From Amphibalanus amphitrite (Eukaryota > Arthropoda > Thecostraca > Balanomorpha > Balanidae), in assembly GCF_019059575.1 (NCBI RefSeq), contig NW_024882975.1, forward strand, positions 90,352 through 154,351: a stretch of DNA of 64,000 nt, read 5' to 3'. A model generated the notes under the pieces. It did no database searches. It saw only the letters and a list, made by a program, of their open reading frames with translations, and had not been told where the DNA came from. Positions 6,300 through 47,858 of the stretch are shown here, piece after piece (the stretch's first letter is position 1; each line of letters starts with the position of its first letter). Made by a program: the position numbers and the translations under genes.

Positions 6300-7098
6300 A
6301 ATCACCAGGATGCACGTACAGGCGCGCACGCTTGGCCTCCCGGCTGCAGGTAGGCTGCTCCTTTCGGAGACGTTCTCTGTCGCCGATGAGGCGCCGGATC
6401 TCACGTACCCGCAGCTGCGTCCTAGTCATAGCGTACTTCCTCAGTACGTATGGATGCAGCTGCGGGAACTTCAGCGCAGCAGCCTCGGCAAGTCGCCTAA
6501 CGACGCCGGGGCCGCGGTCGACATCTCCTCCGTGCATCGTGGTGAACAGCACCTCCAGCTGCTCAACCTCATCGAGCCACCGCGCGCTGGGCACCGTGAG
6601 GCCGCCGCGGCTGAGGGTGTCAATCCAGGCGTAGCGCTCGTCACGGGGTACCTCGCTGGCATCGGACGTGATCTTGCCGAGCGTGCTGTCCACTGTGGCG
6701 CACTTAGCGGCCACGTACCCCGCGACGTACGCCAGCGCCTGCCTGGAGAGACTGGCGACACCGGTTGCTCCAGAAGGAAGGCTTGCAGGTGGCGGGGCGG
6801 CGCCGGCGCTGGCTGCGGGTCCCGGACACGGCTGGCGGGCGGTCACCAGGTTCTCCACCGCGGTGACGTCCGCGTCCGGCACCTCTGGCTCCACTGGCGG
6901 CTCGTGGTCCAGGTCCAGCGTCGTGGCGCTCAGGTAAGTCGGCTCCTTCTCCTCCAGCAGTACTGAGGCCCCGGACTCGCGCGGGTCATCGTGGGTTGCG
7001 GCGGCCACTGTCGGCGCAGCTCCTATGAGGAGCAGGCGGAGGCGGTTCTTGGCCTCCACTGCCGTGGGGTTGGTGTTCGCCGCACCCATGCCTCTCAA
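6298..7098 (-). CDS. P-element/THAP9-type transposase, last exon
   Basis: This is the C-terminal 266 codons of a DNA transposase of the P-element family, which also includes animal THAP9 proteins. These nuclear enzymes cut and join transposon ends. The exon starts just after a good acceptor (CTATTTCAG, AG at 7100-7099) with Leu-Arg-Gly-Met-Gly. It continues from the previous exon's FFSQ in phase 0, giving the family's FFSQ-xRGMGxxN signature followed by AxxRLRLLLIG. Further in are a LAYVAGYVAAK segment, then SRGGLTVPS, then a basic C-terminal helix region ending in HPGD. The reading frame is clean to a TAG at 6300-6298. The stop lies on the edge of the 76-bp satellite, so the 3' UTR must be satellite sequence. 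I cannot see the catalytic RNase H-like exons, so the gene may be incomplete, or its 5' part too diverged to recognise. Confidence 0.85.
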   Translation of the reverse strand: MRGMGAANTNPTAVEAKNRLRLLLIGAAPTVAAATHDDPRESGASVLLEEKEPTYLSATTLDLDHEPPVEPEVPDADVTAVENLVTARQPCPGPAASAGAAPPPASLPSGATGVASLSRQALAYVAGYVAAKCATVDSTLGKITSDASEVPRDERYAWIDTLSRGGLTVPSARWLDEVEQLEVLFTTMHGGDVDRGPGVVRRLAEAAALKFPQLHPYVLRKYAMTRTQLRVREIRRLIGDRERLRKEQPTCSREAKRARLYVHPGD

Positions 7099-16584: not shown

Positions 16585-17290
16585 ATTTACCTTACGGTGA
16601 CCGGTGTCAGACTCAGCCCAGTGGCAGGCGAGGGTCCAATGACGGAAAGCACACTGGACCTGTGCTCTATACTTCCCGAGGAATGTCCTCGCCTCCCTGC
16701 ATAACCTTTTTGTTCGTCCATATCCTTTCCAGTAGGGGAGAGCGGGGTCATTTGGCCGCCCGGGTCACTTTGGCCGCCCCATGCCTACGCGTTTTGACGG
16801 TCCCGAGCGATTATTTTTTAATATGGCATCATCCGCCGTCATAAGAACTACTTTGGAAAGAAACTAAGGAAACTCGGCGACGCCCAGTTTTTTGTAAAGC
16901 CAACGATATTTGAATTTTGGCTAAAAAACGTAACTTTTTCTTCTTTACGAAAAGTTGCATGGTGTCCCTTATTTGGGTGACATCAAAATTTTAACTCTAT
17001 TGGTAGAACAATCTGGTAATTCAGGACGCTGTCTGACCCTTTTGCAAGTTTAAGTAACAATTTTTGCTTGTCTGCGGACCCCTTTTCCTAAAAATGTCAT
17101 ATTGGGGTAAATTGGCCGCCCCATACGGGGCGAATTGGCCGCCCAGCGACTCAGTTGATTTTTTGCCTAGTCTGCGAGCGACGCGCTGCGCTGGCTAAGT
17201 TCTGCCACTGAGGATGGTAATGTGGCGGAGTCTAAATGCAAGGGACGACCTAACCAAGGTGTCCGCTGATTGGCTTTCGGCACCCAGCGG

Positions 17291-17450
17291 CAGATGGTGA
17301 ACCCGGGACGTCACATCGACCTCTACCAGGTGGCGCCGATTTTTCGTCGTGCCTAAGACGCCACCTTCACGCGGAAGAACATCCTTAAGGGATTCGAAGC
17401 AGCCGGGATATCGCCGCTCAACCGGGATATCTCCGACGACGAAGACTGCG
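17291..17450 (+). pseudogene. Pogo/Tigger transposase C-terminal remnant
   Basis: One frame reads NPGRHIDLYQVAPIFRRA, then an in-frame TAA at 17354-17356, then ATFTRKNILKGFEAAG and ISPLNRDISDDEDC. This follows the conserved end of pogo/Tigger/Jerky-type DDE transposases: a PGR-x-I-x-x-Y-x-V segment, then an A-x-T-x-x-N-I-x-x-GF-x-x-x-GI-x-P-x-N block and an acidic DDED end. The stop falls in the linker where the family normally has a short helix. No DDE catalytic residues are visible upstream, so the enzyme is dead. The match to the family pattern is from knowledge, not from a database search. It supports the superfamily assignment made from the ends and the TA flanks. Confidence 0.7.
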
Positions 17451-17513
17451 CCGACGGCGGTCTTCGCACCGGTCGTCGCCCCAGCGACGGCAGATCAGCA
17501 CGCCGCGGCCCCG

Positions 17514-17640
17514 GCCGTGCTCCAGCCGCCAGCCTCGGCCGTGCTCCAGCCGCCAGTCTCGGTTGTGCTCCTGCCGCCAGCCCCGGGGCCGGCCGTGCTC
17601 CAGCTGCCTGCCGCGGCCGTGCTCCAGCCGTCTGCTGTCG
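17514..17640. repeat. 24-bp minisatellite, about five copies
   Basis: Units of GCCGTGCTCCAGCCGCCAG plus CCTCG repeat in tandem just downstream of the transposase remnant and inside the pogo element. They encode Val-Leu-Gln-Pro-Pro or Ala-Pro-Ala-Ala-Ser repeats depending on frame. Confidence 0.85.
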
Positions 17641-18686
17641 CCGTGTCTTAGTTGCTTGTCGGAAGCCCAGAGTCCATCCGACCACTTCCGCAGCTGCGCA
17701 TCAACGTTCAAAAAGCCGGTCGGAGGAAAGGGCGTTCTAAAATCATGACTAACAGCCCGGAGCGGACGACTTTGGAGGGCGAGCAACAGGCACGTATGGC
17801 GAGGAGCAAAAAGCGGGGTCCACAAGCTGGACCGTCGAACCATCGAACTTCGGGAGCTGGACGTCGAACCATCGAACGTCGGGAGCTGGACCGTCGAAGA
17901 AACAGGGGCGCAAAGGTGAAAAACAGTGAAGCGCAGTGATGACTGGACATCCATGCCGTTGGGACCGTATTTTACAGTGGATGTGTTTAAGTGCTGGGTC
18001 GAAGACGGGGCCTGCTGGAATCGTTTTTATTTCATGTTTACGACAGAGTTTGAAATAAACAAACAACTCGTACACAAAGGACTTTTTTGCAGTGTGATTG
18101 TCGTCTAAAGCAATCTACGATTTGGCAGCCATTACAGTTGGCTGTTGTTATCACTGGGCAGTGCTCAACTCATGAGTCGTAAGTTCGTAAATCAAACGTG
18201 GATCCTCACTTGCACTGATTCAAATGAATCGAGTGTAAGCCTAGTCTCTTGAAAAATTTGATTTCAGGTGAATCAAAGATGAGTCACGATGCTCATCATT
18301 TGTGTCAGCATTGGGGCATCTGGATCGTCACATCAGTCATGCGTCGAGTCAATCCAGAATTCATGAGTTAAGCACAATCTTGGGCGTCAATATTTCAGGT
18401 TGTCTCAGCTCTGTAATGGGTATATCTCTGAATCTCATGCCCGGCCAAATGACCCCACTCCCCCGGCCAAATGACCCCGGTACCGGGGTCATTTGGCCGC
18501 CGTGCAGTCTTTGAAAGAACGGTTAATTACTACCGAAACGAGATGTCCCGGCATGATGCAAGTAATATGCCGGAACAACAATTGAACGTCCCACACCCCT
18601 CAATGGAGAAATCGACCAAACGCACACTGGTTTTCTCAAAATATCGTTTTTACAAAAGGGCGGCCAAATCGCCCCGTTCTCCCCTA

Positions 18687-19443: not shown

Positions 19444-21294
19444 TCCGTATTGTATTGTATTTGAATGTATTTGAGTATTTGACAATAGCAGACACTCTAC
19501 AGCAACGCGTAGCTTTTACGTGTCCTTAGTCAGAGATGAATAAAAGAGCAAGGCAATGCTGTCGCATAAACACACACACAATGACACACACGCACACACA
19601 GTACACACAGTCACGCATACAAGTCATCGCCGAGTAAAAATACGTTTCACAGCTCGTTTAAATGCCGCGGGGTCTAGATTTCTCGCGTCTCCCGGCATGG
19701 AGTTGAGGAGACTAGCAGCGCGGTACTGAAAACAGCGCTGCCCCGTCGCTGTGCGCACGGCTGAGAGGCGCAAACAGTTGTCCTGTCTAGTCGAACGCTC
19801 ATCATTCCTAGTGTCAGCATGGGTATGTAAAAGCATGGCAAGCTCGGCGGGTTCTTGATATAAAATGGCTTTGTGAGCAGCAATCGCTGTCTGCATATCA
19901 CACATTTGCCGAGGCGTGTGCAGGTGCAGGTCATCCCGCGCGCGAGACACATGGTCGAACTTCTTTAGCCCCGTTACCACTCTCGCGGCAAAATTGACTA
20001 CTTTAAGCAGTCTAGTATCGTTTTTAGACGAGCCGTTGCCATACACCGAGATACAATATCTCACGCGCGAGATGACCAGCCCCTGCACAATGGTTAACAT
20101 CACATGCCGCGGGAGGAAGTGCCTCAGGTGGCGGAGACCTATCAGGAGGCCGACGCACTTTTGAACCACGTCACTGACGTGAACGTCCCAGCTGAGGTGA
20201 CGGTCAAACGTCACACCGAGGTTTTTAACGCTAGGGCTCTCCTGAATGGTCTCGCCACCGACCCGTACGCTGACAGGTGGTAGGTTACGGGTGTTCTGGC
20301 GGGTGCCAAGGAGAAGGATTTCCGTTTTGGATTCGTTGAGCTTAAGGCCGTGGGCATGGAACCACGATGCTAAAGAAGACAGGGTGGACTCCATGCGCAG
20401 GATGAGATCAGGAAGGTTGCGTTTGACATCGGATAGGAGGATTTGGGTGTCGTCAGCGTACTGGGTCACATGAGCGTCCGGCGCGTGCAAGCTGAGATCA
20501 TTGGAGAAGATTGTGAACAACAAAGGACCAAGGGCGGATCCCTGGAAGACTCCCATGGTGTTGGGAAGAGGCTTGGAAACCACTCTGTCACCGGTAGAGG
20601 AAGAGATGCAGACAGACTGAGTATGACCACTGAGATAAGATGAAAACCATGAAGGATCGATACCATAAAGCTGAAGTTTGGTTAGGAGTTGGTCGTGAGG
20701 GATAACATCGAAACATTTACTGAGGTCGAGGAGGCACAACAGTGAGACATGACCGTGGTCCATGTTCGAAAAGATACGGTTCGTGACGGAAAGGAGTGCG
20801 GTTTCAGTGGAATGGTGGCGGCGGAAACCATGCTGGGACGGGGAGAGGAGATGGTTATCGGACATGAAGGCAAACAGCTGCCGCTGTACCAGCCGTTCAA
20901 CTGTTTTTGCCATGATGGGAACAATGGATATAGGACGGTAGTTTGAGACAAGGGTAGGATCACCGGATTTGTAGATAGGATGAACCAGGGAGTGCTTCCA
21001 GGAATCGGGAAAGTCACAGGAGGTAAGGCAGGTATTGACAATATGGAGTAGGATGGGACCTATGGCATCAAAACAAAGGAGAAGGATGCGAATACATATA
21101 CCATCAGGCCCGCACGCACCAGAACGCTTCATGGAGAACACTACCTCCCGCAGCTCGGCCAGCGTGACAGCAGCGACACGAAAGCCGCAGGCACCAACTC
21201 GCGGTAGGCGACAAGGTACATCGGGAGGCACCCCGCGGCTAGAAAGATCGGCAGCAACACGGGGCCCCACATTCACAAAATGCGAGTTCAGTAG
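19444..21294 (-). mobile_element. 5'-truncated CR1/L2-like non-LTR retrotransposon
   Basis: The minus-strand element has an RT coding region (stop at 19624), then a roughly 180-bp 3' UTR with an imperfect CA-rich stretch, then a terminus near 19450 with CAAATACAATACAATAC repeats. Short AT-rich tandem units are the usual 3' end of CR1/L2-group elements. Homology begins abruptly near 21294, inside the linker between endonuclease and RT. ORF1 and the endonuclease are therefore absent, the usual result of incomplete reverse transcription. The 5' junction runs directly into ATAGCACATAGCACATA tandem repeats. Confidence 0.85.
19624..21294 (-). CDS. Reverse transcriptase of a CR1/L2-like element, N-truncated
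   Basis: The frame is open for 781 codons (from 21969), but only the last 556 or so (from about residue 226, NSHFVNVGPRVAADLS) look like a retrotransposon protein. The first 225 residues are translated minisatellite and unrelated flank. The RT core is complete: SNYRPISIVP, GFRRHHSTETALL, motif A LLDLSKCFD, GSALGPLLF, then the catalytic YADD near residues 504-507, followed by GLKLNESKTE and LGVTFD, and a C-terminal region ending RRFTR-like. No in-frame stop or frameshift interrupts it, so the insertion is fairly recent. With no endonuclease domain it should not move on its own. There is no reason to think it is expressed. Confidence 0.88.
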   Translation of the reverse strand, partial: LLNSHFVNVGPRVAADLSSRGVPPDVPCRLPRVGACGFRVAAVTLAELREVVFSMKRSGACGPDGICIRILLLCFDAIGPILLHIVNTCLTSCDFPDSWKHSLVHPIYKSGDPTLVSNYRPISIVPIMAKTVERLVQRQLFAFMSDNHLLSPSQHGFRRHHSTETALLSVTNRIFSNMDHGHVSLLCLLDLSKCFDVIPHDQLLTKLQLYGIDPSWFSSYLSGHTQSVCISSSTGDRVVSKPLPNTMGVFQGSALGPLLFTIFSNDLSLHAPDAHVTQYADDTQILLSDVKRNLPDLILRMESTLSSLASWFHAHGLKLNESKTEILLLGTRQNTRNLPPVSVRVGGETIQESPSVKNLGVTFDRHLSWDVHVSDVVQKCVGLLIGLRHLRHFLPRHVMLTIVQGLVISRVRYCISVYGNGSSKNDTRLLKVVNFAARVVTGLKKFDHVSRARDDLHLHTPRQMCDMQTAIAAHKAILYQEPAELAMLLHTHADTRNDERSTRQDNCLRLSAVRTATGQRCFQYRAASLLNSMPGDARNLDPAAFKRAVKRIFTRR

Positions 21295-21336
21295 CACATA
21301 GCACATAGCACATAAACCGTAGCACATAAACCGACC
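21290..21336. repeat. Short tandem repeat at the retroelement 5' junction
   Basis: Units of GTAGCACATA / ATAGCACATAAACC repeat four or five times exactly where RT homology stops. The repeat may have formed during integration of the truncated element. Confidence 0.7.
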
Positions 21337-21359
21337 CAAACTGGAACAGTGCCGGACAG

Positions 21360-21615
21360 GGACTGTGCGGGAAGGCCGCGCAAGACAGGAGCTGGCAGGG
21401 ACGTGAGGGGCCGACAAGGGTGTGTGGGCCTGACAAGGGTGTAAGGGGCTGGCAGGGACAGAAGGGGCTGGCAGGTGTGTAAGGGTCTGGCAGGGATGTG
21501 GGGAGTTGGCAGGGTGTGAGGGGCTGACAGGGTGGGAGTAGCTAGCAGGGTGTGAGGGATTGGCAGGGGCATGAGTGGGCTGGCAGGAGGATAGAAGAGG
21601 CTGGCAGGGCCGCGG
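21360..21615. repeat. Degenerate minisatellite, GGCTGGCAGGG-type
   Basis: About a dozen imperfect units of GGCTGGCAGGGTGTGAGG, each about 20-22 bp, with variants GGGCTGACAAGG and AGTTGGCAGG. The Pro-Ser-His-rich N-terminal portion of the long RT frame is a translation of this repeat. Confidence 0.85.
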
Positions 21616-24600
21616 GACCTCCTGGCCTGGATAACCTGGATGACAGGAGCACCGATCCCATCTGATAGCTATAACTCGTACCGTCGCCCTCACACACCCA
21701 CCACCCGCATCCCGGCTCCAGCTACCCACTAACCTCGCTCCGAGTGACTGCACAGTGCACTGAGTGCACAGTGACCCACAGCGCGCAGCTTCATTATACG
21801 CGAACCGCTCCACCACTCGTCTGATAGTGCAAGACAAAACATCCACTGTGCGAGGCAGCGCCAGCCACACGCCACTCGAGGCACGCTGGCGTCGGACCAA
21901 GAATCTGAGTGAGATCCGAGGCAGTTTCAGGTGGTCAGGTGAGCAGACCGTGGTCGACACTAGCCGCACACAGGTCTACTGCGAGACATCCTGAAGGACG
22001 AGGACAGGGCAGGCGAGCGAAATGGGTGCTCGGGAATCGGAACACGTGAGAGTGACTGGCGGTTTTACTGCCGACTCCGGAACCGCAGAGCCGCCGGTTT
22101 CCGGCTACGTAAGACTGCGGAAAGCTGCAGAAGTGCAGAAGGCCGCAGAAGTGTACTGGATGGATGCCAGGCTCGGGAAAAGGCATGATTCGAGCCTGTG
22201 TGATGCGACGGTGGCCGTGAAGGCTTCAAGCGTTCATACCAGCTGAACTCGCAAACAAATACAGGAGAGTGCAAAATAATAACTGCACGGATAGAGTTTA
22301 AGCATTAGGTAAGCATTCCAACTTATTGGCAACAGATGTCCAACGTAATATCAATTTGGTGGAATAACGAAACCAGAATGGAACTTTGATATAACCCATT
22401 ATGTCTGACTGCTGCTTCACCATCTCTGTATCGCCCGGAACTTGTACGAGCATTGCGCAATATCCGAAAACTAGTTGTACACGCAACAGGATTAAAGTCC
22501 ACCGCTGCCTATTCTTTTAAATTTTCAGTCTGCGAGCCTCTGGCAGAGTCAACAGACATGTTTCGAACTAAAAATAGGTACACTGAGACTGTTACCACGT
22601 GATCGCTTGTCTAGGTAAAACATTCCAATAGAAGTAATCTTTAAAAAGGGTACAGTAAGCACCTTACCTTTTGGTGCATGATTCAGTCGAAACTGAAGGC
22701 CCATCTGGGACGAGCCCGGAACCTCCTATTGTATCAGCTACACAGTAACCCCGCTCAGGTGAAACGGAACCGGCTGAGACCATCCGAATTCCAACCCCAG
22801 GTGCCCTTCGGTCGGGGCCGGACTCCCAAACACACCAAGCAACAGCCTGCTCCTGGTAACAGCCTCTGTCTCTTGGGACTTCGACAGCACCTTCGAGCCC
22901 AGTCTTCATCAAAGACTAACCTTCACGACACAACCTCTCACCGGCGCCCATGTAACGATCCGGGCGTGACAGCCTGCCACCCATGACCTCCGCTCGGCCC
23001 ATAATGACCCCAGACGTGACAGCGGACTTGGTCAGAGCACCGTGCCGAGAGCCGTGCCGAGTACCCGCGAGCTTCGACAGCTGGGTGGACGGTATTGGAC
23101 GCCGCTCCATCCGCCTGGCTGGCGGAGCCCGGTTTCAGCGCACGAAAGGTTCAGGGTACTGGTGTTAGGCATCGGGCAAGCCGCCAGTGGCACGCGTAAG
23201 TTATGTATCGGAGCTGCCATGAAATGGTAAGTTGCAATGTTACGAGGCACAGCTGATGGTCCACTTCAAAGAACGCCCGCCAGCTACAGCCGATGGCGTT
23301 CTTTAAATCGATCACGCGATCAAAGGCAATATATTCCACGGCATTATTCACTACAAGGCCATTGAAGTAACAGACCCAACGAATCAGTACGACATTGCTT
23401 ACATTCCATGAAAAACGATTATGGTCGTAATCATCGCATCCCAGCATATTCTAACTCAAAGCGGTATACAGAAACCTGGATCAACCCGCCAAAAAAGAAG
23501 CATGAGCACCTTAGTTCGGTTCAGAACCACTGACCTATTATTCCTTACTAATGACCAGCAAGTCTGAACCACATCTCCATCCGCATTCTTCAAGCATCCC
23601 ACTACTCGCACCACGCCCAGATACAGATACAATGGTCGCTGTCCCGCCACAGGGACACACCGCCGCCCCTGTTACCAGGAGGCGCAGACAGGGTCGGTGC
23701 CCGATAACCTCTGTGTGCCCCGGGACCTGCCGCCCCACCTGCCGCTCCCCTGCACGGCGCGGCGCCAGGTTAGTTCAGTGGCCTATCTCGGCCTGAAGAG
23801 CTGGGAGCACTATCACCGTTAAAACATAGCCCGAAAGCAATTAGCTCCGGCAGAGGGTGACCGAAATGCACACGGTTCGGCTGTTACGTCAGAAACGCCA
23901 AATGCGGAGAGTGTGGCACGTGAAAGGCACGTGCCACTTGCGTGACACGTGTGCCACATTAAGTCCCGGCAGGTGGTCAGTTTCCTTCATCGGTCGTAAC
24001 GGTTCACCAGCAGAATTCATAGCCAATGATACTGGAAAATGAGAAGCCTACACAAGCAGCACTGGCGCCATATTGAATGTGTCTTGCTTCCATGGTGAGC
24101 CGAGAAAGCGGCGCCAAACCTCACTACTCAAGGCTGTCGCCTGGAGCCGCCTGAAGCCGTCAGGAATAAGCACTTTTCCAGATGAAAACACAGCTGCCTA
24201 GGTAGTACCTTCAGCATCATCCACTGAACTGCAGCTGCATATTTCACTAATGAGGCAAGTCTCAAGAGTGGCTCGCATGACAACCTGACTCGACAATACA
24301 AGTACAGTGCCGGATCCTGGACAGTCATCGGGTTGCGCGGCATTTCCGCAGAATAATTCTCTAGCTGCGCAGAGCTGCCCAGCTCGCCTGTATCTACTAC
24401 AGCTCAAGCCAACAAGCTGCGACAGCTCTGTAGTGTGCTGTCAGGTCACCAAAGTAACCCAGCCCAGCCGGCCAGAGCCGCTATGTGAGCACTGAGCAGT
24501 CAGCCCGACTTCCTGGGAGAAAATAACGCTTCGGGTACTGTCTTACGTCTTCTCGCAAATGTTCGGTGCAGATGTTTCAAATGTTTGTCGCAAATCGGCA

Positions 24601-41601: not shown

Positions 41602-42789
41602 CTGGATGGTGTGGGTGGTGATGAAGACACACCGGTGGCAGGCGCAGGGACGGGGGGCGGTCCCAACAGGGCGGGAGAGGCACAAGGGAACTATGGTGGA
41701 GGAGCAATGAGTTAGTGATAAAGGATACAACTCACTCGCCTCAGAAGTGTGAGGGCCATTGTCTAGTCTTCCCCATAGCACGACAAAAAAAGGAGAAGAA
41801 ACAAACCGTTGTCCGTTTCAAATGGAACACGTCCGATTTGTTAGTTTCTAAAGGCTGCTTATCAAACCGACTGAACATGACTGAAGGAAAAAAAAGACAT
41901 AAATGACTACTATAAATGGCGTGAACAAAGAGACCTGTCGAACAATTTTACGGCAAGGCAAGGGCAAAGAATGAGGAAAACGTGTATCGGTTAGAGTGTA
42001 AATGTTGCCCCCAGATACCGTGACAGATTCTAATCCGACGGCATCCCGCTTTTAGACCGGTCAGCGACGGTTTGTTAGAGGCTTAACGCCAAGAAAAGAT
42101 TTAACAGACGGGGGAATGGCAGAGAAGCCCTCAAAAGTGGCCGGTCACTTTGAAAGACGGTGTTGTCGCGCAATTGAAACTCTGACTTGACTCCCAGCAC
42201 CATACCCCAGGCTATATTTTCTCCCCAAAAAGATATTGATAAACTTTTGATGGTCAATGGCGAGCCAGAGCTGCGATATTCGTAACATAATAACAGCTAG
42301 CAACTGACAAGAAACATCCACATGGGCTATCGCTTTTCCGTTGTAGGCCCATTTGTATTCGGCACCGTCAGCATTCTTGAATTTCCACTGCCGCGTGTCT
42401 GCTTGGCCCATATGAAGTCGCCTCGTTTCAGGCACGAAATATGCTACTATAGCATTCACCCTAAACCCATTTTGTTCCAGAACTGCATTTCGCTTGAAGC
42501 CTTAGGAGGAGCCGGAAGAAAACGCATGAATAAATAACGTGCGGCAAGCCTCCCCCAGGGCAGGCAAATGTCAACATTCGTCAGAGGCAAAAACAAACTC
42601 GGTACTAGGCTACTGTGAATTATTTCAGTGAGCCACCTCAAATTGCTCGCTGCTGGCTTGTTTGTATGTAGCGAACAGGTGGTTGAAAAATAACAAATGA
42701 AATACCCTAAGTCCTAACACTTCTGACGGAACGTCATCGTCCTGCACTAACTGCTGAATCATCTATTCTGAACTTGTCAATAAAGGGGG

Positions 42790-42797
42790 CAATGTCC
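42790..42797. other. 8-bp target-site duplication, left
   Basis: CAATGTCC immediately precedes the left terminus of the hAT element and is repeated exactly after its right terminus. Confidence 0.92.
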
Positions 42798-43111
42798 CAG
42801 GGCCTCCTCTAACATACCCACTGGGTGGGCAAATACCTACCCAGTCACCACAATTGCCCACCCAGTGGCGTCGATTTGCCCACCCAGAAGCAAATGCAAA
42901 AATAAAGGTCCGGCCAGACGTCCGGTAGGAACTACCACTTCGGTTTCCCGGAAAAAAACTTGCTAGCAGCCAGTGCCCCAGCCCCCAATCACTGCAGTGC
43001 AAGTTATTTTTTTAAAATGGATGCATCTGAATGCAGGGGCGGTAGCAGACTTGGCGTTTGGGGGTGGGGGCAACTTGGCAACTTTGCCAACCCTCGGAGG
43101 GGGGGGGGGGC

Positions 43112-43217
43112 GGTGCTAGCTTACAGAGGCCCATGGCCATAGCGGCCTCAAAGGCCCGTATGGAACCCCAGAGGCCGATGTGGGCTCTCAGAGGCCAGTG
43201 CGTGACGCCTAAAGGTG
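43112..43217. repeat. CTCAGAGGCCAGTG minisatellite, first block
   Basis: Imperfect 27-30 bp units centred on CAGAGGCCGATGTGGG / CAGAGGCCAGTGCG. The array resumes at 44457 after the pogo-type insertion, again at 45029 after the MITE and at 47015 after the TTAA-flanked insertion. Confidence 0.8.
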
Positions 43218-43219
43218 TA

Positions 43220-44454
43220 GGGGAGAGTGGGGTAATTTGGCCGGTGGTGTAAATTGGCCGCCCCCACCTGTACGATGTTTAATAAAAGTGAGTGAAATAA
43301 CTCTAGTCTCTATTCATTTGTCATGGGTAGAAATAACTGGAGGACAAATGTCAAAACTTTGCCCCTCGTAGTTTTATTCAAAATTAATAAAACGTTAATT
43401 TCATTAGAAAATGGTAACTTTTACTTCTGTTTACAAAGTTGTATAGCATGTAGTGTTTGGGCTAAAAACGAATTCAGACATTATAGCGCCATTCTTGGGG
43501 GTGTTCAGCGGTTCCAAGAGCAATTTTTTTCTAATTCCGTATAGCCGTGATGACTTTATAGACAAAAATTTTCAGAACGGCAATATGGGGTAATTTGGCC
43601 GGGACTAGCGGGGCAACTTGGCCGGTGCGCTCATGGTCACTATGCTGGGACGGCCGAGTTTTCATGGTCAATTATACCATTAATGACATGATTCATGACC
43701 AACTTTGACTTCTTCGATGCCTTACTTTCGATTGGTCAACTGTAAGAGCATGTGACGTCATCAAAGGTTACCAAACGTTTTTTGCTAATAAATCCTTACA
43801 TAAAAAAGGTACAGCCGCACAAATGGTCTCATTCTGTTCAGCTCGCCAAGGCGCATCGAATGATATGCATGATGACCTTGAACTCACGTAACCTTGAGGT
43901 CAAGCGACCTGATGCAACGTGACCTGAGGTCAACCTTTGACCTTGACTTCTCAAGGTCAACACATATATCTTTCGATGCGGACTGACGAGAGAATTACGA
44001 TGGTACTCTAAGTTTTGGCCTAGCTTGATTACTTCAAAAGTTATTCGTAAAAAACTGTGATCGCATCTAGAGCCGCTAATTTGGCTATTTTGACCCCTGT
44101 GACCCCTCAGTCAACCTCCAAAATGCGGCAAATGCGTCATAGGACACACGTCATTGCTGAATCTGAAGCTGACTCGCAATATAACAGAAAATCCCGACCG
44201 CAAACTAGCACCGGCCAAATTGCCCCACACCCCCGGCCAAATAACCCTGCTAGTGGGGCAATTTGGCCGCCTTCCAGCCTTTGTAATACGTCACAATTTC
44301 AATATAAGTAATTACTCTATCATTTCAAGTTCACTGTCCAGTAAAGTAAAATGAATGCGACACCTGCCAGCGTTGAGAAAATGCAGAAATGTGTCGTCAA
44401 TTTTAAGTTATATCGTTTTCTAAAAAAAAGCGGCCAAATTACCCCACTCTCCCC
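43220..44454. mobile_element. Pogo-family non-autonomous element, copy B
   Basis: The 1,235-bp element has ends GGGGAGAGTGGGGTAATTTG and its inverse, flanked by TA (43218-43219 and 44455-44456). The ends and the internal GGGGCAATTTGGCCG pairs (about 43587-43625 and 44212-44277) match copy A at 16735-18684. No transposase remnant is visible, so this is an internally deleted relative. Its interior has TGACCTTGAGGTCA-like repeats at about 43870-43960. It interrupts the minisatellite inside the hAT element. Confidence 0.88.
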
Positions 44455-44456
44455 TA

Positions 44457-44894
44457 AGCCATGGGTCCCCAGCCAGACCACAAAATAGGGCCATCAGAGA
44501 CCTTATAGGCTGATTGGGGACTAAATAGGGCCTCAATTTGGAGCCATCAGAGGCAAATGTGGGCCTCAGATATCAGTGTGAGGCCCTTATAAGACTGACA
44601 TTGGTCCTCAGAGACCGGCATCGATCCTTCAGAAGCCAGTACGGGGCCCTCAGAGGCACAAAAGGGTCAGTCTTGGATCTCAGAGGCAAAAAATGGGCCA
44701 TCAGCAACCGGTGTGGGACCTTTAGAGGTCGGTTTGTGCCCTCAGAGGCCAGTTTAAGGCCCTCAGAGACCAGTACAGGGCCTGAAAATGGCAGTTTGAG
44801 GCCATCAGAGGCCGACTTAGGCTCTCAAAGGCTAATGCGGGTCCTTGAGGCAAGGATGGGACCCTCAGGGGTCAGTGTGGCACCCACTCCGCGT
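44457..44894. repeat. CTCAGAGGCCAGTG minisatellite, second block
   Basis: About 15 imperfect units of roughly 28 bp (for example CCCTCAGAGGCCAGTTTAAGG). The 154-codon frame across it (44538-45002) is a translation of the repeat. Confidence 0.85.
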
Positions 44895-45028
44895 TCAGGA
44901 AATCGCATGCGAGAACCTATTCAAATACATTGTAATTCTTCCCGCATCAATCGCATCCGGGAGGTGCGTGCGATTGATGCGAGCGTGCTTCCATGTATTT
45001 GAATAGGCTCTCGCATGCGATTTCCTGA
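44895..45028. mobile_element. 134-bp hairpin MITE
   Basis: Arms of 36 bp (outer end TCAGGAAATCGCATGCGAGA) are inverted copies with one mismatch. The centre holds a second palindrome, CGCATCAATCGCA / TGCGATTGATGCG, so almost the whole element can fold into one hairpin. No convincing target duplication is seen. It is inserted in the minisatellite. Confidence 0.85.
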
Positions 45029-45123
45029 CTGCGGAAAGAGTCTGTTTCAGACAGGCTTGGGCTGGTATTGGACCCCAGAGTCCAGAAAAGGCCAAGTTGA
45101 GCCCTCAGAGCCGATGCAGGTCC
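45029..45123. repeat. CTCAGAGGCCAGTG minisatellite, third block
   Basis: Two or three degenerate units between the MITE and the TTAA site. Confidence 0.65.
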
Positions 45124-45127
45124 TTAA

Positions 45128-47010
45128 CCCGGCAGTTGCTGGGGTATTTCGCTACCCACCGTTTGCTGGGGGGGGGGGGGCGTTAAACGCCCCCAGCCGA
45201 TAACTCGAGAACCAATAGGCGCAGCGAAACGCACGAGGCGACAAACGAAAGAACGCGACGAGACGCTTCAGATGAGTACTTTTAAGTTGAATTTTGAGGT
45301 CACAGGTCGGGTCAAGGTCAGGTCAAACACCTGAAATCGGACTTTCAGTAGCATGGACTTCAGGACTTCACAATGGGCGCCTCCCGTCATAAACTCTGTC
45401 AAAACGGTGCACAATCCATCATATAAGGCCTACAAAAGTGTCAGCTCCATGTAGGGGTCAGTCAAGCATAGGTCAGGGTCAAGGTCAGGTCAACCGGGTA
45501 GACACATATCCCCGAAAATCAAAACTGATATTCGCAGCCTGTGACACATGTTTTATGGGTAATTTGGGGCGTGGAACACGATGGTGACATTCATTTTATC
45601 ATATGTGTACGTGTTTGGGTCAAAAAGTTCAAATTAAGAAATACATGTATCATGGTCGTGAAGTAGTCATGAGAAATTGCCAAGATTCAGTTCAAGACTT
45701 TGGAAAATGCGGAACGATAATCAATAATCGAAGATAGCCATTTGATTGTTCATGGTATTGGCAGTCTAATGGCGTTTACGGCATGTCTGTATGTCTATTC
45801 TGTGATTTTATATGATTTTTTGAACATATAACGTTTTTGGTCGAAAACCAAGAAATCATGACGTCACTGAAACCTCGATATCTCAAAAAATTTCCGACCG
45901 ATTTTTTTGAAATTTTGTCACAATAAACGTCAAACAATTCCCTAGAGGCACCCAAAATTTGGCGTGCCTGCGGCGCACCGTTTTTTTTTTTTTTTTTTGC
46001 TATGGCCCAGCGAAAAAAGTGGGGGCGTTTAACGCCCCCCCCCCCCCAGCAACTCGGGGGGAAACCCTCGCCCGTATAGGGGGGGAGTCGAACGGACCCC
46101 CCTCGATTTTTTGCGAATAACTCGCGACCTGTGACCCCTTTTCCGTGACCATGTTTGGCCGAAATCGCGATTCGGCGTATGTCGGCTCGCATTAGCCGCG
46201 CGTTTGCAAGCTTGTCGTGATTTCAAACGTTCAAACATGTGATTTGATGTTGCTCCCATACATAAGGGTGGGTGTCAAGGTCACCTGAAGGTCAGGTCAC
46301 GTCATTGACCTTTGGTGACCTCGGGTGACCTCGGTTCACTTTTTCGAGTTTTTTCATGTTCTAGGCTAGTTTTTTATCTGAATTCGAATTTAGCAACCAT
46401 TTGAACATTTACGAAGTAGTTTTGGTGCCTTCGTAACATGTTACGAAGCTGTCAGAGGCGGTTGACACGTAATACGAATACCAGTCACAACCCCTACCGG
46501 TTGACCTGACCTGACCTGACCCGACCTGGTCTAAATGGCATGCTTAAAACATCATCTCTGATCAAAACTAACACGATATTCGTGATCAGCACCCCGGAAA
46601 ACCACATAGCAGCCACACTTTACGACTTTCTAACAGGTCCCGATTTTCCCGGTTTTCGGGTCATTGACCTGACCTGGAAGGTCACTCGATGACCTAGGAC
46701 CTTAAAATCGGGTATCATCGGCTTCCTCTGGTAACGGGCAACACGCTCGTTTTTTCCGTGAAGCTCTAGCTTGATCAGGGGCCAAACGCGAGGGGGTCGG
46801 GTCGTGCCGCCGAAGGACGCAATGGCCTGTGCCGGCGAGGGTTAAAATTGGGTATCATCGGCTTCCTCTCGTCACGGGCAACACGCTTGTTTTTTTCCGC
46901 GAAGCTCTAGCTCGATCAGGGGCGAAACGGCAAGGGAGGTCCAACGCCCCCCCCCCCCCCTATACGAGTACCTACGTTCGCGGCTGGAAAAACACCAATA
47001 CAGGGGATGG
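45128..47010. mobile_element. TTAA-flanked insertion (piggyBac/Kolobok-like target)
   Basis: TTAA lies at both edges (45124-45127 and 47011-47014). Deleting the segment rejoins the minisatellite as GCAGGTCC-TTAA-AGGCCGG, which matches neighbouring units. The left edge starts CCCGGCAGTTGCTGGGG and the right edge ends AATACAGGGGATGG; the two are only weakly inverted. Each edge is followed about 45-50 bp inward by a G/C run and a CGTT. No transposase is visible. The interior is rich in AAGGTCAGGTCA-type motifs. The TTAA target is typical of piggyBac and Kolobok elements, but the ends are too weak to choose. Confidence 0.6.
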
Positions 47011-47014
47011 TTAA
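46703..47014. repeat. Tandem duplication of the right end of the TTAA element
   Basis: Two copies begin TTAAAATYGGGTATCATCGG (46703 and 46842) and share TTCCTCTSGTMACGGGCAAC and GAAGCTCTAGCT. Each ends at a GGTTAA (46840-46845 and 47009-47014). A duplicated terminus ending at the same sequence supports GGTTAA as the real element edge. Confidence 0.75.
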
Positions 47015-47140
47015 AGGCCGGCATCGGGTCTTCAGAATCCAGTGCGGGGCCCTCAGAGGCTAATATGGGCCTTTACAGGCCAGCATGGGGCCTCAGAGGT
47101 CAGTGTGGGACCCTCAAAGACCGGCATGGGCCAGCAGGGT
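47015..47140. repeat. CTCAGAGGCCAGTG minisatellite, fourth block
   Basis: Four or five units such as GCCCTCAGAGGCTAATATGG, continuing the array after the TTAA insertion. Confidence 0.75.
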
Positions 47141-47233
47141 AGCGCGCTACAAGGCCAAGGATGTATTACAAGTAGATTAAGGTCAATAAAAGCCGTATTT
47201 AGATCAAGAGGACGCGCTTAGAGTAAGCTGACC

Positions 47234-47300
47234 ATGCCTCCTAAAAAGAGGCAGCGAGCATCACCTACCTATTCGATTTCTGGTTCAAGGAGCAATCATA
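47234..47300 (+). CDS. Candidate short first exon with nuclear-import-like start
   Basis: An ATG in good context (GACCATGCC) opens 22 codons, MPPKKRQRASPTYSISGS and four more residues, then a GTAAGT donor at 47301. PKKRQR resembles a nuclear localisation signal, which would fit a hAT transposase leader whose remaining exons have been deleted. The plus-strand direction leaves only about 550 bp to the element end, so the rest of the gene is missing if this is real. It could also be chance. Confidence 0.3.
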
Positions 47301-47359
47301 GTAAGTTTAACTCTGCACTTTTGCAGTCTTCTTAAAATTTTAAATGTATGTAGACTAGA

Positions 47360-47600
47360 GATGTCAATCGGATACCAACTTTTTGGTATACCGATACCAA
47401 ACTGATACCAACTTGGTATTTGGTATTTTGATCCTAATGTTGTTGGTATTTTGTTGGTATTACGAATCCGGCTAATGTATAAGAGGATACGAATTCGGTA
47501 AAAAGTTGGTATTTCCCTCATGTTCCCAAGTTGGTTTGGTTTCGGTATTTTTCATGGTTTTGGTTGGCATTTGGTTTGGTATCGGTATCCTGATTTTCCG
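47360..47600. repeat. TTGGTAT-rich degenerate repeat
   Basis: Many short units of TTGGTATT, GGTATACC and GATACCAAA in both orientations lie near the right end of the hAT element. They may be subterminal transposase-binding repeats or simple sequence. Confidence 0.6.
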
Positions 47601-47850
47601 TTATTGATATCACTAATGTAAACAATTGACATACCTATAAGGTGAAATACACACGAAATACCATATCACACACGACAAACGTTAAACTATAAATGGCACA
47701 GTTGGTTGACTGTGAAAGTGACATAGGCCTTAACCCCCCCCCCCCCCAGTCGCAACCATCACCCCAAAACAAGTGACTGGATCTGCCCTTGGGCAGGGGA
47801 GCGGCGAACAATTTTGCCCACCCAGTGAAAAATCCTTAGAGGAGGCCCTG

Positions 47851-47858
47851 CAATGTCC
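47851..47858. other. 8-bp target-site duplication, right
   Basis: Exact copy of CAATGTCC at 42790-42797. Confidence 0.92.

Follow-up and report, generated by a model that had tools for sequence, protein, structure and literature searches.

A 5,053-bp transposon at 42798-47850 of the window, which is a 64,000-nucleotide stretch of Amphibalanus amphitrite DNA on contig C1478, most probably represents one copy of a non-autonomous hAT-type family into which other transposons were inserted at different times. We put the probability of this reading, together with the order of insertions proposed below, at roughly 0.87. A preliminary description of the locus had counted three insertions as later than the landing of the hAT element; two of the three most likely happened in its ancestors and were carried along.

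A hAT-type element with perfect target-site duplications

The element is flanked by two copies of CAATGTCC that match perfectly over 8 bp, and its terminal inverted repeats pair at 15 of 15 bp. Three copies of the motif TTGCCCACCCAGTG lie close to the left end, one of them with two mismatches, and a single copy lies close to the right end. The following features define the element and its ends:

42790-42797, left target-site duplication, 8 bp, CAATGTCC; identical flank in the C46 copy
42798-47850, non-autonomous hAT-type element, 5,053 bp; from ends, duplication and siblings
42798-42812, plus strand, left terminal inverted repeat CAGGGCCTCCTCTAA, 15 bp
42819-42832, minus strand, subterminal motif TTGCCCACCCAGTG
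42854-42867, plus strand, subterminal motif TTGCCCACCCAGTG
42876-42889, plus strand, subterminal motif, two mismatches to TTGCCCACCCAGTG
47234-47335, plus strand, short open frame beginning MPPKKRQRASPTYSISGSRSNH, containing a donor-like GTAAG; its first 22 residues gave no Pfam match
47814-47827, plus strand, subterminal motif TTGCCCACCCAGTG
47836-47850, minus strand, right terminal inverted repeat, 15 bp
47851-47858, right target-site duplication, 8 bp, CAATGTCC

We estimate that 23 bases would coincide by chance in this way, at sites up to 10 kb apart anywhere in the 64 kb, with a probability of roughly 1e-5. The 5.05-kb hAT-type element that had first been described from its perfect 8-bp duplications and inverted ends is real, and siblings with duplications of their own agree with it. 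Its nested insertions are likewise backed by siblings and by empty sites.

No long frame of the hAT transposase type was found inside the element (42798-47850), and the genome search yielded no autonomous parent. A search of the genome with the hATC profile gave at least 149 matches (150 of 554 candidates scored). By eye, none of these lies within 20 kb of the exact ends listed on C1-C47; family left ends on C130 and C88 have a match at a distance of 3.5 kb and 8.7 kb, respectively. The match on C130 is in an open frame of 834 aa on the minus strand (region C130:957,900-966,000). About 0.2 such pairs would be expected by chance among the 100 ends listed, by our estimate, and it is therefore no more than a lead to an autonomous parent. 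Rfam, searched at its gathering cut-offs, returned no match.

The short frame at 47234 was considered as a transposase exon and rejected, with no domain match and only about 0.6 kb left to the right end. It is present in all eight aligned copies that cover it, those of the window and of seven siblings, and three of the siblings (L012, L018, L021) differ from the others in some codons.

Sibling copies in the genome

The whole assembly (807.6 Mb, 2,644 contigs) was searched with 321 bases starting at 42780, and the best 40 of 492 first-look candidates were scored. These 40 matches were 97-100% identical to the left end; 27 start exactly at 42798 and 11 sit 1-4 bases earlier, while two include the flank, these being the window itself and its duplicate on C46. 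The genome matches keep the boundary first drawn for the element, against which siblings with other boundaries would have counted. The exact 15-mer of the end has 470 + 440 matches in the genome (control 0), and the family-specific 30-base left end, allowing at most two mismatches, has 142 + 142 = 284 in 808 Mb (control 0). Since the 15-mer is more numerous than the family left ends, it also belongs to other elements. An element of 1,220 bp on C13, with its own perfect 8-bp duplication TCGTAAAT, has the same termini and has little in common with the window element beyond these and short homopolymer-rich pieces.

We read 19 siblings over 9.9 kb and 19 over 1.6 kb, one of the latter again over 5.7 kb; they were taken as the closest matches to the left end of the window element and do not form a random sample. 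The resulting 38 rows (L010-L047) represent 34 distinct flanks, with one flank common to L010, L013, L014 and L015 and another to L039 and L046. A search for full-length siblings had been proposed in the preliminary description, and it succeeded: 14 of the 19 long siblings have both ends. Twelve of these carry their own perfect 8-bp duplication, while L020 and L021 have both ends yet no duplication. In L010, L013, L014, L015 and L028, the right end was absent within the stretch read. Without their private insertions, siblings are 3,659-3,668 bp long. The family is non-autonomous and of the hAT type, and it is young: the median pairwise divergence of the hAT-own sequence was 1.4% (205 pairs, some of them involving the C46 copy or the copies with a common flank).

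Contig C46 carries a near-identical version of the whole locus (99.90% over 7,316 bp), which could represent either an allele or a duplicate produced in assembly. No empty genomic site was found in the assembly; both flanks occur only on C1478 and C46, and both of these are filled.

Nesting is frequent among the siblings read, and further nested insertions comprise an 8-bp hAT-type insertion in L016 and TTAA types in L024 and L028. The 60-bp left flanks of L010, L013, L014 and L015, located on four contigs, are identical; to judge from these flanks, the insertion was probably made within a larger repeat or a duplicated segment. L010 also has an aspartyl-protease-like frame at 6542-7012. In L027 (360-9299), a second, incomplete element comes after the first and ends in an identical 8-bp GTTGATTG; part of the element and its flank seem to have been duplicated locally in tandem. 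Copies of 3.03-3.05 kb with the family left end are recurrent (C1:2662959, C2:2191679, C14:1900920, C25:697137). Reverse transcriptase frames (RVT_1) beside siblings, at 3744-7022 in L012 and 8629-9699 in L024, are pieces of retroelements. Elsewhere in the window, at 19624-21969, a 781-aa open frame with an RVT_1 match (E 2.6e-33) marks a LINE-like element.

An old minisatellite array

Inside the element, a tandem repeat is distributed over four segments:

43149-43217, array segment 1, degenerate 20-21-bp tandem repeat, approximate limits
44457-44885, array segment 2
45049-45123, array segment 3
47015-47131, array segment 4

When joined, the segments display periods of 20 and 21, with z of 7.1 and 7.6 relative to shuffles (about 15 bases of a neighbouring insert were included), and the 20-21-bp array is collinear in most siblings read. 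Could this be a chance G+C-rich stretch of low complexity, with no tandem repeat? TRF detects just a single short piece of it, with 3.6 copies at 61% matches, which speaks against a tandem array; however, the autocorrelation at 20, 21, 40-42 and 62-63 (z 3.7-7.6) includes harmonics that a chance stretch would hardly give, and we regard that explanation as extremely improbable. The array itself is real but old. It had been described as one array split by TA-flanked, hairpin and TTAA-flanked pieces, and this description stands, with all the pieces present and the periodicity detected in the joined segments. A copy with an uninterrupted array was not found, none of the 40 scored matches (best 40 of 1,829 candidates) spanning the joined site.

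The pogo-like insertion

The first interruption of the array is the following:

43218-44456, TA-flanked Tc1/mariner-type (pogo-like) insertion; single-TA empty sites in siblings

The dinucleotide TA is present at 43218-43219 and at 44455-44456, with 1,235 bp between the two copies and perfect inverted ends of 24 bp. Among the 38 sibling rows, 36 have an empty site with one TA, and none has the element. Of the other two rows, L028 was judged to be without the element by inspection (5 bases between the flanking matches), and L043 is uninformative. In the copies compared, the insertion is seen only here, which suggests that it is private to the window copy and its C46 duplicate. Near-full-length relatives, 97-98% identical, occupy 38 places besides C1478 and C46, in addition to a second match of 90%; they start and stop at TA..TA or within a few bases of it. 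The earlier assignment as pogo-type agrees with the TA flanks and the inverted ends, and is not proved by them; no transposase domain was detected.

Two further observations concern relatives of this element. At C602:269564-272036, two pogo-like elements abut in the same orientation, being 97% and 90% identical to that of the window. A diverged relative, also between TAs, is present in the window at 16733-18686 and includes a 25-aa frame, DATFTRKNILKGFEAAGISPLNRDI (17357-17431), which we take to resemble the tail of a pogo transposase. This remnant had no Pfam or PDB match, and phage records, compared with 30 aa of the relative, gave none either, as expected.

The hairpin MITE is common to an independently inserted sibling

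The second interruption is a hairpin:

44886-45048, Harbinger-like hairpin MITE, TWA target, both tips trimmed; from siblings and full-length relatives

Where most siblings read CACCCTAAAAGAC, the window has 163 bases that replace TAAA, with no duplication. Full-length relatives of the hairpin elsewhere have longer tips, and seven of nine have a TWA duplication (by eye). Because of these longer tips and TWA duplications, we infer that the MITE was inserted at TAA and that both of its tips were trimmed later. A simple insertion of an intact MITE was rejected, as both tips are lost.

The hairpin site is empty in 30 of 38 rows by script and in L028 and L047 by inspection; L035 carries the MITE, and L012, L032, L040, L043 and L044 are uninformative. 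The carrier is a sibling on C115 (L035/L048), which has the identical trimmed junction, its own perfect 8-bp duplication CAAAACAC and no pogo-like insertion. Since this sibling was inserted independently, the hairpin MITE was probably aboard before either the window copy or the C115 copy landed.

Gene conversion or recombination, instead of descent, might also have given the two copies a MITE in common, and we consider this unlikely. Although the copies differ by 1.68% (57 of 3,400 sites), they agree at every base of the 171-bp MITE query. In a FastTree tree calculated without L010, L013, L014 and L015, the window copy, C115, L011, L020 and L026 fall in one clade (support 0.96), and within it the window copy and C115 are left unpaired, the branch that splits them having a support of 0.41. 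However, only about three differences would be expected in 171 bp, so that identity is weak evidence for an exchange, and one site pattern supports the pairing of the two copies (2027) while one opposes it (2536). Descent from an ancestor that already carried the trimmed MITE is the reading we prefer.

The TTAA block probably comprises two elements

The third interruption is longer, and we divide it as follows:

45124-46064, TTAA element A; TTAA at 45124-45127, body at 45128-46060, right TTAA degraded
46061-47014, TTAA element B, probably a second insertion; degraded TTAA in common with A, right TTAA at 47011-47014

The TTAA-flanked insertion previously noted is present, and is best read as two elements, not one. 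One single TTAA insertion was rejected, as A jumps on its own: L019 has an additional A at TTAA 44754, with TTAA on both sides, where the site is uninterrupted in the window, and the same junction occurs in L044. Allowing at most one mismatch, the left end of A is found 1697 + 1607 = 3,304 times in the genome (control 0). Element A is separately mobile, and the block is probably composed of A and B. To the right of A, seven aligned siblings have GTAACCC and the window has GAAACCC; we read GTAA/GAAA as what is presumably a decayed TTAA common to A and B. The inverted ends of B are imperfect, and B contains an internal near-duplicate (46702-46795 and 46842-46936).

Of the 38 sibling rows, 31 retain the left junction of A intact, and A is therefore older than the window copy. 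It may not be family-wide: on C1-C13, seven family copies carry both exact ends, and for five of these no left end of A is among the exact matches listed. The copy at C5:277315-280034 has no A left end among the exact matches listed and measures 2,720 bp, about the 2,722 bp expected without A; that it lacks A is an argument from length.

A fourth nested element

One nested element was overlooked in the preliminary description:

47356-47615 (47348-47623 with duplications), hAT-like MITE, 260 bp; from siblings and a C70 relative

The ends of this MITE are TAGAGATGTCAAT and ATTGATATCACTA, and its 8-bp duplication, ATGTAGAC/ATGTAAAC, has one mismatch in the window; in siblings L012 and L021, a perfect ATGTAGAC flanks it on both sides. 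It is complete in 12 of 19 long siblings, interrupted in L027 and deprived of its left part in L023. L028 gave a weak partial match, and no match was found in the stretch read of L010, L013, L014 and L015. A diverged relative on C70 (88%) spans the site without the MITE, and the 85 bases there show one (A/T)TGTAGAC.

Proposed order of events

Herein, we propose how the locus was most likely assembled. A hAT transposase supplied in trans would recognise the subterminal TTGCCCACCCAGTG motifs together with the 15-bp ends, and the element would be cut out and reinserted with an 8-bp duplication; the ends and duplications are observed, and the mechanism is assumed from the superfamily. The starting point would be an element carrying its array. 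TTAA elements (A and probably B) and the small hAT-like MITE would then have entered an ancestor, and the resulting subfamily would have spread. Next, the Harbinger-like hairpin MITE would have entered a TAA, with its tips trimmed, in an ancestor of the window and C115 copies. The window copy would then have landed at CAATGTCC, and the pogo-like element would have entered a TA in the window copy only. The order of these last two steps is not strictly fixed, because no sibling read carries the pogo-like element.

In the preliminary description, the hAT element with its array landed first and the window copy then received three independent hits. The private pogo-like element fits this scheme, and the array is interrupted by all three inserts. 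However, the independently inserted C115 copy also has the hairpin MITE, and the scheme is contradicted for the TTAA block by the junction present in 31 of 38 rows. On these grounds three private insertions were rejected, and we attach very little credence to the scheme as a whole.

The locus is an ordinary nested transposon whose relative chronology has been corrected here, and it adds no new mechanism. For the stratigraphy of nested transposons, it illustrates that order is decided by sibling copies and not by a single locus; the single-locus reading most likely mistimed two of the three inserts. Common descent of the hairpin MITE would mean that a hAT lineage took another transposon along to a second site. 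A bolder idea, that the array is a working part (in transposase binding or expression) and that the hAT element accommodates several kilobases of foreign transposons and is thereby a carrier spreading Harbinger-, TTAA- and hAT-type elements together, strikes us as quite improbable.

Comparison with known systems

Each component resembles a known type of transposon. Element A, and probably B, resembles piggyBac-type TTAA elements in having ends that start with CCC and, for the independent insertion of A, a TTAA duplication; this likeness is drawn from ends and TTAA, and other TTAA-using superfamilies are also possible. Similar to PIF/Harbinger MITEs, the nested MITE forms a hairpin over nearly its full length, and its relatives have TWA duplications in seven of the nine read; unlike these relatives, the window copy is without both tips. 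The insertion at 43218-44456 shares with the pogo branch of Tc1/mariner a TA duplication with empty sites, perfect inverted ends of 24 bp and many near-identical copies, and differs from it in that no transposase domain was detected. The element as a whole matches non-autonomous members of the hAT superfamily in its 8-bp duplications, its short inverted ends starting with CAGGG, its repeated subterminal motifs and its sibling copies with identical boundaries. Unlike members of this superfamily, it has no transposase found in it or linked to it, and its cargo consists of a degenerate 20-21-bp array and other transposons.
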